Below are positions 7,493-35,416 of a stretch of DNA of 64,000 nt, one piece after another. Under the pieces are notes generated by a model. The model searched no databases. It had not been told where the DNA came from and saw nothing but the letters and a program-made list of their open reading frames with translations. The position numbers were made by a program, and so were the translations under genes. Each line of letters starts with the position of its first letter. Position 1 is the first letter of the stretch. This stretch comes from Rathayibacter iranicus NCPPB 2253 = VKM Ac-1602 (GTDB lineage: Bacteria; Actinomycetota; Actinomycetes; Actinomycetales; Microbacteriaceae). The stretch lies in contig NZ_QGDV01000003.1 of NCBI RefSeq assembly GCF_003149025.1, forward strand, positions 186,001 through 250,000, read 5' to 3'.

Positions 7493-7548
7493 CCACTGTC
7501 CACAAGTTGTCGCACTCGACGTCGAGTGCGACAACTTGTGGACAGTGG
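7493..7548. repeat. 56-bp perfect palindrome, left boundary of DUF559 element 1
   Basis: Bases 7493-7520 and 7521-7548 are exact reverse complements: 28-base arms with no loop, centre CTCGAC/GTCGAG. It begins 15 bases after the methyltransferase stop and 99 bases before the DUF559 start. A near copy lies at 8583-8632 on the far side of that gene. It could also terminate methyltransferase transcription, but a loopless 28-bp stem is unusual for a terminator. Confidence 0.9.
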
Positions 7549-7647
7549 TGCGCGGGATGCTTCCTCCACAGGCAGCGGTTGGAGGAACTGTCCCCAGAAG
7601 TACCGGAACGAGGTCCGCGAGGTTCGTGTGCCGTCCAGGCTGGCGGC

Positions 7648-8556
7648 ATGTCCAGCACCGATCTCAACGCCTTCACCCGACGCGCGGCCCTCCGCGCGGG
7701 GGCGACGGACGCGCAGCTTCGCTCCCCGGCCCTGGCCCAGCCTTTCCACGGCGTCCGCACCCGCGTCACTCCGGTCACGCATCTCGAGCGCGCCACGGCG
7801 TACGTCCCGCGGCTTCGACCCTGGCAGCTCTTCTCGCACCTGACCGCCGCGCATGCGTGGGGAGTTCCTCTCCCCTTGCCGCCTCTCGAGGACGACCCGA
7901 TCCACGTCTCGGCGCGGCCACCTCATCGACCCCCACGGACTCGGGGCGTCATCGGTCACACGCTCGCCGACACGGATCCAGACGTTGTGGAGCGCCACGG
8001 CCTGCGGATCACAGGCGCAGCGTCCACCTGGATTGCCCTGGCGCCGATGCTCTCGGCCCGCGATCTCCTCGCCGCCACCGACTACTTTCTCTTCGTGCCG
8101 AGGCGCCCCCGCCGAGACGATCCCCGCCCGTTTGTCACCTTCGCCGAACTTGAGGGGCGGCTCGCGACGCATCGGGGCCGTGGGCGTCGAGGGCTCGTCG
8201 TTGCACTGCGGCTCGCCTCGACGAGGGCAGCCTCGCGCAAGGAGTCCTGGCTGCGGTCACTCGTCCTGCGGGCAGGGCTGCCCGAAGCCGAAGTGAACGC
8301 CGAGATCCGGGTCAATGGTCGACTCCTCGCCATCGGCGACGTGGTGTTCCGACGGTGGAAAGTGGTGGTCGAGTACGACGGCGGGCAGCACCGCACGGAC
8401 GATGCTCAATTCGCGCGTGACCGGGAACGGCTCCTTGCCCTGCAGCTCGCCGGCTGGATCGTCGTGGTCGTCCGGGCCGAGGGCCTGAGCCGAGGCCGCG
8501 CGAGGACCGTCGCTGAGATCCGAGCCGCCCTGACGGCCCACGGGTGGAGACCGTGA
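7648..8556 (+). CDS. DUF559-domain protein, predicted Vsr/PD-(D/E)XK-like nuclease (element 1)
   Basis: A 302-residue protein started at the ATG at 7648; the frame is open further upstream but would then read through the palindrome. The first two thirds lack a clear motif (possibly the AbiEi-like arrangement common in actinobacterial DUF559 proteins, inferred only). The last 100 residues have the DUF559 nuclease core: Asp231 in IGDVVF, Glu242 in VVVEYDGGQHR, then FARDRERLL and AGWIVVVV. The spacing Asp-x10-Glu-Tyr equals that of the second DUF559 gene at 23955. The gene is bracketed by two copies of one palindrome (7493 and 8583). No partner toxin or methyltransferase is fused to it. The activity is predicted, not known. 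Confidence 0.8.
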   Translation: MSSTDLNAFTRRAALRAGATDAQLRSPALAQPFHGVRTRVTPVTHLERATAYVPRLRPWQLFSHLTAAHAWGVPLPLPPLEDDPIHVSARPPHRPPRTRGVIGHTLADTDPDVVERHGLRITGAASTWIALAPMLSARDLLAATDYFLFVPRRPRRDDPRPFVTFAELEGRLATHRGRGRRGLVVALRLASTRAASRKESWLRSLVLRAGLPEAEVNAEIRVNGRLLAIGDVVFRRWKVVVEYDGGQHRTDDAQFARDRERLLALQLAGWIVVVVRAEGLSRGRARTVAEIRAALTAHGWRP

Positions 8557-8582
8557 TGCATGGATCACGTTCGCCGCGCCGA

Positions 8583-8632
8583 GAGTCCAGAAGTTGTCGC
8601 ACTCGGCGTCGACTGCGACAACTTGTGGACAC
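8583..8632. repeat. Degenerate second copy of the element 1 palindrome
   Basis: Arms 8583-8607 and 8608-8632 pair with four mismatches in 25. The sequence reads the same as the palindrome at 7493-7548 over about 47 bases with only a few differences (for example GTCCAGAAG for GTCCACAAG and TCGACTGCG for TCGAGTGCG). It sits 26 bases after the DUF559 stop and before the converging LacI gene. The two copies enclose just the one gene. Confidence 0.88.
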
Positions 8633-8675
8633 TCGCGGCGCGGCAGCGCGTCGAAGTGCCGCGCCGACGTCCGCG

Positions 8676-22819: not shown

Positions 22820-23806
22820 ATGGACACTCGAATCCTCGGCCGCACTGGTGCGCCCGTTTCCGTCGTCGGCCTCGGAACCTGGCAGCTCGGTGCCGACTGG
22901 GGGGATGTCGCCGAGAGCGATGCCCTCGCCGTGCTCGACGCCGCGGTGGAGTCGGGCGTCACTCTGTTCGATACCGCCGACGTGTACGGCGACGGCCGCA
23001 GCGAGCGCACGATCGGCGCCTATCGCGCCGCGCATCCCGACGCGCAGGTCTTCGTCGCCACCAAGATGGGCCGCCGCGCCGAGCAGATCCCCGCGAGCTA
23101 CGTGCTCGACAACTTCCGCGCCTGGACCGACCGCTCGCGCGCGAACCTCGGCGTCGAGACTCTCGACCTCGTGCAGCTGCACTGCCCGCCCACCTCCGTC
23201 TACTCCGACAACGCCGTCTACGACGCGCTGGACACCCTCGTCGCGGAGGGCGCGATCGCGGCCTATGGCGTCTCGGTCGAGCGCACGGAGGAGGCGCTCG
23301 CCGCGATCGCGCGGCCGAACGTCGCGAGCGTCCAGATCATCCTGAACGCGTTCCGTCTCAAGCCGCTCGACGAGGTGCTGCCGGCGGCCCGGGAGGCGGG
23401 CGTCGGCATCCTCGCGCGCGTACCGCTCGCCTCCGGTCTGCTCAGCGGCCGCTATACGACTGAGACGGCGTTCGCTCCGGACGATCACCGCAGCTACAAC
23501 CGTGATGGCTCGGCCTTCGACGTCGGCGAGACGTTCTCGGGCGTCGACTTCGCGACCGGCGTCGAGGCCGCGCAGGAATTCTCGCGTCTCGCGGACGACC
23601 ACGGCCTCGCCCCCGCCGCAGCGGCTCTCGCGTGGATCATCCAGCAGGACGGCGTCACCTCGGTGATCCCTGGCGCCCGCTCGCCAGAGCAGGCCCGTGC
23701 CAACGCGGCCGCCGCCTCCGCCGCCCCCCTCGGCCCCGCCTTCATGGAGGCGGTCAACGCCCTCTACGACACCCACTTCCGCCCCACCATCCACCCCCGC
23801 TGGTAA
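22820..23806 (+). CDS. Aldo/keto reductase
   Basis: A 328-residue NADPH-dependent oxidoreductase of the AKR superfamily, (beta/alpha)8 barrel. The tetrad is visible: Asp in LFDTADVYGDG with the following Tyr, Lys in VATKMGRR, and the His in LVQLHCPP. The C-terminal cofactor loop is VIPGARSPEQARANAAA. The start is the ATG at 22820 in GGTGGAGGCATGG; the frame is open 16 codons upstream but those overlap the divergent promoter region. It resembles the general-stress type of AKR. The substrate is unknown. Its stop is 10 bases from the first palindrome of DUF559 element 2. Confidence 0.92.
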   Translation: MDTRILGRTGAPVSVVGLGTWQLGADWGDVAESDALAVLDAAVESGVTLFDTADVYGDGRSERTIGAYRAAHPDAQVFVATKMGRRAEQIPASYVLDNFRAWTDRSRANLGVETLDLVQLHCPPTSVYSDNAVYDALDTLVAEGAIAAYGVSVERTEEALAAIARPNVASVQIILNAFRLKPLDEVLPAAREAGVGILARVPLASGLLSGRYTTETAFAPDDHRSYNRDGSAFDVGETFSGVDFATGVEAAQEFSRLADDHGLAPAAAALAWIIQQDGVTSVIPGARSPEQARANAAAASAAPLGPAFMEAVNALYDTHFRPTIHPRW

Positions 23807-23816
23807 CCCCGCCGCT

Positions 23817-23878
23817 GCTGACTCGCCCGAGAAGGCTCGTTCTCGGGGCGGAGAACGAGCCTTCTCGGGCAAGTCAGC
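23817..23878. repeat. Palindrome, left boundary of DUF559 element 2
   Basis: Arms 23817-23844 and 23851-23878 are 28 bases with one mismatch (positions 23824/23871), around the loop GGGGCG. It differs wholly in sequence from the palindrome of element 1. A copy with the same arms and loop is at 24783-24840. The two copies share about 60 bases and continue alike for several bases beyond the right arm (AGCGCGGG). Confidence 0.92.
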
Positions 23879-23954
23879 GCGGGGCTGTGGAAAGTTTGCG
23901 CGGGAGGAGGGGCTCGGGCGCCAGCATGGGGACGTGCAGGAGGGCGTGTTCAGG

Positions 23955-24785
23955 GTGGCTGAGGGGTCCGCGGCGGGGTTGTCGCGGGCGGCGATGCGGA
24001 GGATCGACGCGCCGGTCTACGGGATGCGGTCGCGCACTCCTGCCGTGACGCTGGTTGACCGGTGCTCAGCGCTCCTTGCCCGGCTGGGCGGTCACGCGTT
24101 CGTCTGTGGACCGACCGCGGCGCTGCTCTGGGGCGCGCCTCTTGATCGCCACTGGGAGGAGCGCACTGCACTCGACATCGCCGTTGAGGCGCCGGCTCGC
24201 GCTCCGCATGCCGCAGGGATCGTCGGACGCTCCGTCCGCCTCGGGCCCGGGGACGTGCTCGACGGGCGGCGCGGGCGCCTGACCGGTCCGGCTCGCACCT
24301 GGTGCGACCTGGGCGCGGTCCTGCCACTCGCCGATCTCGTGGCCGTCGGCGACTTCCTCCTGCACGCTGGGTTGATCGACGCGGCTGGCCTGGCGGCTGC
24401 GGTCGAGCGCTACCCCGGTCGCCGGGGGCTGCGCCTGCTGCGCACCGCGCTCGCGCTCCTTGACGGGCGGGCCGAATCGCGCCCGGAGTCGCTGGTGCGG
24501 GTCGCGCTGGTACTCGCCGGGATTGCGGGCATCGAGGCGAACGTCGTGATCCGCGACGAGACGGGCGGATTCCTCGCCCGCGTCGACCTCTGCATCGCCT
24601 GGGCTCGGGTTGTGATCGAGTACCACGGCGACTACCACCGGGTCGAGAAGGGCCGTTGGCGTCGAGACCGCGCCCGCGCCGGGCGCCTCCGGGCCGCAGG
24701 ATGGAACGTCATCGAGCTCACTGGCGACGACCTCGCCGACCTTCCCGCCGTCGTCGCCGCCGTCCGCGCGGCGCTCCATCCGTGA
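23955..24785 (+). CDS. DUF559-domain protein, predicted Vsr/PD-(D/E)XK-like nuclease (element 2)
   Basis: About 276 residues. The first ATG is late, so the start is uncertain: GTG at 23955 (AGGAGG ten bases upstream) is preferred over GTG at 23946 or 23934. The C-terminal core matches that of the gene at 7648: Asp211 in ARVDLCIAW, Glu222 in VVIEYHGDYHR, then RWRRDRARAGRL and AGWNVIEL, again Asp-x10-Glu-Tyr. The N-terminal half contains CGPTAALLWGAPL and a GPARTWCDLG segment that parallels GAASTWIALA in the first gene. The two proteins share architecture and motif order but are clearly diverged. The stop codon TGA is the first codon of the right-hand palindrome, so gene and repeat are joined as one unit. 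Confidence 0.78.
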   Translation: MAEGSAAGLSRAAMRRIDAPVYGMRSRTPAVTLVDRCSALLARLGGHAFVCGPTAALLWGAPLDRHWEERTALDIAVEAPARAPHAAGIVGRSVRLGPGDVLDGRRGRLTGPARTWCDLGAVLPLADLVAVGDFLLHAGLIDAAGLAAAVERYPGRRGLRLLRTALALLDGRAESRPESLVRVALVLAGIAGIEANVVIRDETGGFLARVDLCIAWARVVIEYHGDYHRVEKGRWRRDRARAGRLRAAGWNVIELTGDDLADLPAVVAAVRAALHP

Positions 24786-24840
24786 CTCGCCCGAGAAGGC
24801 TCGTTCTCGGGGCGGAGAACGAGCCTTCTCGGGCGAGTGA
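24783..24840. repeat. Palindrome, right boundary of DUF559 element 2
   Basis: Arms 24783-24808 and 24815-24840 (26 bases, one mismatch) around GGGGCG; the inner 24 bases pair perfectly. Left arm and loop equal those at 23817-23878. The DUF559 stop codon forms its first three bases, and the converging pgm stop lies eight bases beyond. Confidence 0.92.
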
Positions 24841-24847
24841 GCGCGGG

Positions 24848-26479
<1,632 letters not shown>

Positions 26480-35334: not shown

Positions 35335-35416
35335 CGACGTCTTATGATAGATAGAGGGTCGGGAAATATTCTCGACCCTCTATCTATTGTAGATTCTTGC
35401 GTAGGGGGCGCGGCTG

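Follow-up and report, generated by a model that had tools for sequence, protein, structure and literature searches.

The window analysed here, a 64,000-nt stretch of DNA from the genus Rathayibacter, contains two genes of the DUF559 type, each located between two palindromes. The second of these units, referred to as element 2, consists of the following features:

23817–23878, no strand assigned: left palindrome of element 2, with 28-nt arms, one mismatch and the loop GGGGCG
23934–24785, plus strand: DUF559/Vsr-like PD-(D/E)XK nuclease gene of element 2, encoding 283 aa, with the stop codon TGA at 24783–24785
24783–24842, no strand assigned: right palindrome of element 2, overlapping the stop codon, with the loop GGGGCG

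The GTG at 23934 is the presumed start codon of the gene. The right palindrome has perfect 24-nt arms at 24785–24808 and 24815–24838. As the sequence-only reading of this DNA had claimed, the palindromes around the gene are near-identical (97% identity over 65 nt as direct repeats, spaced 964 nt from start to start), and the first codon of the right repeat is the stop codon of the gene. To the left of element 2 lies the end of a gene of putative aldo/keto-reductase (AKR) type, a label taken from the earlier reading, and to the right a pgm-type gene on the minus strand (24848–26479). Folded as single-stranded DNA, the left and right palindromes reach -32.9 and -32.6 kcal/mol (z -10.2 and -10.8), values equalled by none of 200 shuffles. 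Their hairpin scores are 24 and 24, compared with a maximum of 15 in 12 first-order Markov copies of the window. A chance origin of the element 2 hairpins is not expected. It is also hardly credible that hairpins arising by chance, or transcription terminators, account for the palindromes. The position of the right copy at the gene end would fit a terminator, but no terminator-like site was found in 23700–24950, the same sequence occurs upstream of the gene and elsewhere in the genome, and flanks match each other at 81 of 112 related loci (see below). The same interval gave no Rfam match at gathering scores, and distant blastn retrieved no copy of the element from a plasmid collection. A further hairpin with 19-nt arms (ATAGATAGAGGGTCGGG..) lies at 35347–35387 of the window, with no DUF559 gene noted alongside.

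The element 2 protein matches Pfam DUF559 (PF04480) with 20.7 bits, just over the gathering cut-off of 20.6. The match covers its C-terminal part, where MTES_1575 also matches, below the cut-off; no Pfam family matches the N-terminal part. In PMC3710099, MTES_1575 is presented as an REase domain of the Vsr family. Among 25 members of the protein family scanned with Pfam (E 1e-3), MTES_1575 was detected in 16, DUF559 in 13, DUF2726 in one, and nothing else, with neither a Y1 (HUH) transposase domain nor any other transposase domain among the matches. Among solved structures, a profile search retrieved 3hrl (E 4.3e-4), labelled an 'endonuclease-like protein', and 3r3p (E 0.036), labelled a 'mobile intron protein'. 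Six residues, E185, D218, E229, Y230, H235 and R248, are invariant in all 25 proteins. They include the Asp-x10-Glu-Tyr core pointed out earlier, which is present in element 2 as D218...E229-Y230. By analogy with Vsr, E185, D218, E229 and H235 presumably have active-site roles. Median dN/dS is 0.28 in clade A (28 pairs), 0.19 in clade B (21 pairs) and 0.24 in clade C (28 pairs), indicating that the protein is under purifying selection. The two window proteins have no PADLOC match and no NCBIfam match at E 0.01.

The other unit in the window, element 1 (7493–8635), has the plan of element 2 with a different palindrome, in agreement with the earlier reading. It consists of:

7493–7548, no strand assigned: left palindrome of element 1, with perfect 26-nt arms and a sequence different from that of element 2
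7648–8556, plus strand: nuclease gene of element 1, encoding 302 aa, protein clade B
8580–8635, no strand assigned: right palindrome of element 1, with several arm mismatches

Six PF04480 matches are present in the genome of the window (3.38 Mb, 49 contigs). A matching palindrome pair is absent at four of them, one of which has a single upstream hairpin.

All 15 genomes of the genus contain relatives, as do 97 of 150 genomes of the family and 136 of 197 of the class, the last identified by profile. For flank comparison, 135 loci were fetched (61 from the genus, 60 from the family and 14 named ones; one without a hit). Proteins shorter than 270 or longer than 345 aa, loci with short flanks and locus L114 were left out, giving 123 loci, and removal of 11 more at >95% identity gave 112 non-redundant loci. 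The 60 family loci are the top of an E-value-ordered list, with a few skipped because they lay near contig ends or for other reasons, which biases the sample towards element 2-like proteins. The match threshold was the 99th percentile among 11,864 pairs of flanks whose proteins are <50% identical. Above it, the left and right flanks of the same locus match at 81 of the 112 loci (38 of 49 within the genus and 43 of 63 beyond it). Flanking palindromes had been expected at most DUF559 loci. This holds for the relatives compared here, but not for every DUF559 gene, as the four unpaired genes among six in the genome of the window show. The 31 unmatched loci include all eight non-redundant members of clade F, and some of those outside clade F have a hairpin on just one side. 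The 81 matched loci have a shared repeat whose median starting position is -136 nt relative to the start codon on the left and +3 nt relative to the end of the stop codon on the right. The right repeat starts in or before the stop codon at 31 loci, 0–40 nt beyond it at 43 and farther away at seven. Beyond the family, 9 of 21 loci pass a like threshold, which is raised by kin included in their null, and their palindromes are different.

Several features of these palindromes were noticed during inspection. Relatives in other families of the class repeatedly have palindromes starting GTTGATCATGG next to them (L289, L290, L299 and L300). By eye, the outer tips are alike in many otherwise unrelated palindromes, with TGAG followed by TTGCC, GTGCC or GGGTC. 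At the family loci, this TGA often doubles as the stop codon of the gene.

The protein subgroup predicts the palindrome, as the sequence-only reading had supposed. Palindrome similarity tracks protein identity over the 112 loci (Mantel r 0.546; 0 of 2000 permutations). When the left flank of one locus is compared with the right flank of another, matches rise from 1% at 30–40% protein identity to 2% at 40–50%, 14% at 50–60%, 60% at 60–70% and 83% at 70–80%, with 71% above 80%. Common descent would suffice to give this correlation, but would not by itself give a concerted change of the left and right palindromes. Such a change is observed in clade A. At 13 clade-A loci, 10 of them at the AKR-pgm site, the palindrome arms are 92% identical within a locus and 62–63% identical between loci, and each of the 26 palindromes is closer to the partner at its own locus than to the mean of the palindromes on the same side elsewhere. 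Among 19 clade-A palindromes, both-sided changes occur at 8 of 24 arm pairs, in 38 cells compared with 14.8 in shuffles, the independent events being few since arm changes are common to related species. Further pair types are not raised in these 19 palindromes (13 versus 15.0). The arms pair in 96.5% of cells, compared with 33–52% in slid controls, and the both-sided changes preserve this pairing. Together, these patterns suggest that each protein recognises its own palindrome.

Copies of the palindromes are dispersed through the genomes, as counted for three palindrome families of the genus. In the genome of the window, palindrome 1 has 56 half-sites, four of which are the element itself, compared with four in a reversed control. 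Palindrome 2 has nine, compared with none in the control; four are the element itself and one is a 3-mismatch match that may be due to chance. Palindrome-1 copies are mostly single, with about four doublets among some 28 palindromes. The third family, family C, whose partner is protein clade C, has 9–183 half-sites per genome in 15 genomes (controls 0–2), or up to about 90 copies in one genome. The 24 copies compared share a 61-nt unit whose asymmetric loop is conserved. A heuristic gene caller was used to place 46 dispersed copies: 19 lie in convergent, 15 in codirectional and three in divergent intergenic regions, four lie within an ORF and five are undetermined. The dispersed palindromes are REP-like families located mostly near gene ends. 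In many family-C flanks (L313–L332, L263–L269), the left side is pyrimidine-rich and the right side purine-rich, perhaps a target preference.

Since the dispersed copies resemble REPs in look and placement, they could be REPs of the ordinary kind that owe their mobility to an unrelated Y1 (RAYT) transposase encoded elsewhere, with the DUF559 genes as passengers. We consider this very improbable, because across the 112 loci the palindrome type tracks the DUF559 subgroup and the spacing is constant, and a GTAG tag was found within the 14-nt flanks of just one of 24 family-C copies.

The number of dispersed copies was also compared with the gene content of the genomes. Family-C copy number is higher in genomes with a clade-C gene, which is a trend only (p = 0.09; 9 versus 6 genomes). 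The ATGA subtype has 33–65 half-sites in the three genomes whose gene carries that subtype, and 0–2 in 10 of the 12 other genomes. The exceptions are G006 (54) and G010 (52), whose gene carries the other subtype, yet ATGA copies are abundant; the test is small, with these two exceptions (p = 0.017; 3 versus 12 genomes). In the genome of the window, a clade-C gene was not found at E 1e-8 despite about 33 family-C palindromes. There the family is an orphan, and a CCTCTT variant is frequent among the matches listed.

Close relatives differ widely in copy number, with 60 family-C half-sites in genome G003 and nine in G007. Seven family-C sites of G003 were sought in selected stretches of G007 and five could be placed. 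At three of these, colinear flanks of 90–96% identity are present and the palindrome is missing from G007. The fourth site has other sequence in G007, and at the fifth the flanks lie apart. These differences represent the presence or absence of lone palindromes, which may have arisen by gain or by loss. At the cleanest junction, the palindrome copy is without its outer left tip and there is no target-site duplication; sequence divergence affects the remaining junctions. One of the three empty sites in G007 holds another hairpin. Insertion into an existing hairpin was considered but is not claimed, since permutation tests gave only weak flank complementarity for family C (129 of 5000) and none for family B (4544 of 5000).

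The gene itself has a mostly stable position at the AKR-pgm site. Relatives were checked for empty sites between the AKR and pgm genes, as the sequence-only reading had proposed; a clade-A element is present there in 12 of 15 genomes of the genus and missing in three. Eight genomes have the orientation found in the window and four the inverted one, with the gene in two pieces in two of the inverted ones; the two orientations (L248–L262) look as if the element inverts between its two palindromes. The genomes without the element there are G005, G012 and G009, the last two having lone palindromes from other families at the site. A single clade-A palindrome was not observed at any of these three sites. 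In G009 (L262), a palindrome GGGTTGTCACTCCGTC.. is followed by three GTCAAAGAAACGGCAACCC-type hairpins in a row, and this genome has its own gene with that palindrome (L118). The G005 site (L256) and the right flanks of L107 and L115 carry another repeat, with the ends ..GGGCTACTCGA.. and ..GTATCGAGA.., which has no obvious tie to a DUF559 gene. Near the relatives in Plantibacter, Cryobacterium and Leifsonia, neither pgm nor AKR was found within 5.4–6.9 kb.

These sites bear on another explanation, a homing-type element in which the gene entered a pre-existing palindrome, whose duplication left a copy on each side, and palindrome alleles without the gene are cut by the enzyme. The stop codon inside the right copy, seen here and at the 31 of 81 loci described above, the profile similarity to the mobile intron protein 3r3p and the two orientations at one site are all compatible with homing. 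However, the lone palindromes, up to about 90 copies, would all be targets, and the three AKR-pgm sites without the element showed no single clade-A palindrome. We therefore regard homing as improbable.

The reading that we somewhat favour is a REPtron-like system, in which a Vsr-like nuclease acts on its own palindrome and spreads it, and the gene is mostly stationary. The Vsr-like PD-(D/E)XK endonuclease would target its own long palindrome, most likely as an extruded hairpin, and its activity would scatter and homogenise palindrome copies in intergenic DNA. The gene would mostly remain in place between two palindrome copies. The overall working would be that of a REPtron (RAYT/REP), with an unrelated enzyme in the place of the Y1 transposase. 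From the patterns described above, we infer that the palindrome is bound and cut by the protein, with the hairpin serving as substrate, and that this cutting drives dispersal or mobilisation. The 31 of 112 loci with unmatched flanks, the orphan family C in the genome of the window, the mere trend linking family-C copy number to the gene and the two exceptions in the ATGA subtype weigh against this reading.

Alternatively, the protein may be a palindrome nuclease or regulator that serves the host in genome maintenance, in a gene-end function or in control of its own gene, with the copies spread by recombination or another enzyme. Purifying selection, the mostly stable position at the AKR-pgm site and the location of dispersed copies mostly near gene ends all fit a host function. 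Moreover, the Caulobacter DUF559/Vsr-like protein VsrA is reported to act in the cell on its own chromosome and to trigger the SOS response upon methylase loss (PMC12907096). Nevertheless, the left and right copies change in concert, copy number is far apart in close species (G003 and G007), and many unrelated palindromes are found, which is unexpected under a shared host role. We consider a host function unlikely on these grounds.

More broadly, and tentatively, the REPtron-like system may represent a new class of mobile DNA that is widespread in Actinomycetes. In such a class, the nuclease would excise or copy the hairpin and spread non-autonomous palindromes, enzyme and palindrome would co-diverge into many distinct pairs, and the whole, based on a nuclease of the repair/restriction type, would parallel RAYT/REP by convergence. 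REP-like palindromes that have no enzyme of their own pose an unsolved problem, and several families here have an apparent partner. This apparent partner enzyme is unrelated to known RAYTs, and the plan recurs in Actinomycetes of other families. With dozens of matched pairs available, specificity and mechanism can be tested directly. If the proposal is correct, many genes labelled DUF559 would gain a function, and a natural collection of palindrome-specific nucleases would be at hand.

A published link between DUF559/Vsr-like proteins and palindromic repeats was not found among the papers listed in searches of chiefly open-access literature. The nearest described systems are the REPtrons, which are depicted as a mostly single-copy gene with cognate REPs adjacent and genome-wide and with no evidence of gene mobility (PMC8266576, PMC3116915). 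E. coli genomes without a RAYT gene are reported still to hold REPINs, though fewer (PMC8049555). The elements described here resemble REPtrons and REPIN-RAYT systems in several respects. A mostly single-copy gene is bordered by palindromes (here at 81 of 112 loci), cognate palindromes are scattered between genes, and several distinct gene-palindrome pairs occur per genome. The gene is single-copy and vertically inherited (here clade A at one site in 12 of 15 genomes), and copies are more numerous where the gene is present, which is only a trend here. They differ in the enzyme, which is Vsr-like PD-(D/E)XK here and a Y1 transposase in RAYT, and in the palindromes, which are 40–61 nt long and mostly single here, whereas RAYT systems have inverted REPIN doublets. 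The GTAG tag, near only one of 24 family-C copies, is a further difference. Because the bordered gene encodes no Y1 transposase and the GTAG tag is nearly absent from the family-C copies, the elements are not filed as a RAYT system.

CGTC-tagged REPs are likewise described as dispersed intergenic palindromes without a known Y1 transposase partner, and are said to lack a dedicated enzyme (PMC3733652). Their stems are given as 8–9 bp with a CGTC tag (PMC3733652), whereas the arms here are about 19–28 nt; 5 of the 24 family-C copies have CGTC in their flanks. E. coli-type Vsr, Caulobacter VsrA and 3r3p belong by profile to one nuclease superfamily with the element proteins. They are not known to be accompanied by flanking or dispersed palindromes, and the gene here is free-standing and encodes about 180 additional residues at the N-terminus. 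Insertion sequences such as IS200/IS605 are similar in having a gene flanked by end sequences capable of forming hairpins. In contrast, no transposase domain was found in the protein here, and the genomes of the genus mostly hold one member per subgroup at a shared site, not many identical copies. The gene also differs from those of homing endonucleases in being free-standing and intergenic, not inside an intron or intein. No defining feature of a RAYT system, a homing element or an insertion sequence was found in the system, whose palindromes are presumed to be mobile.
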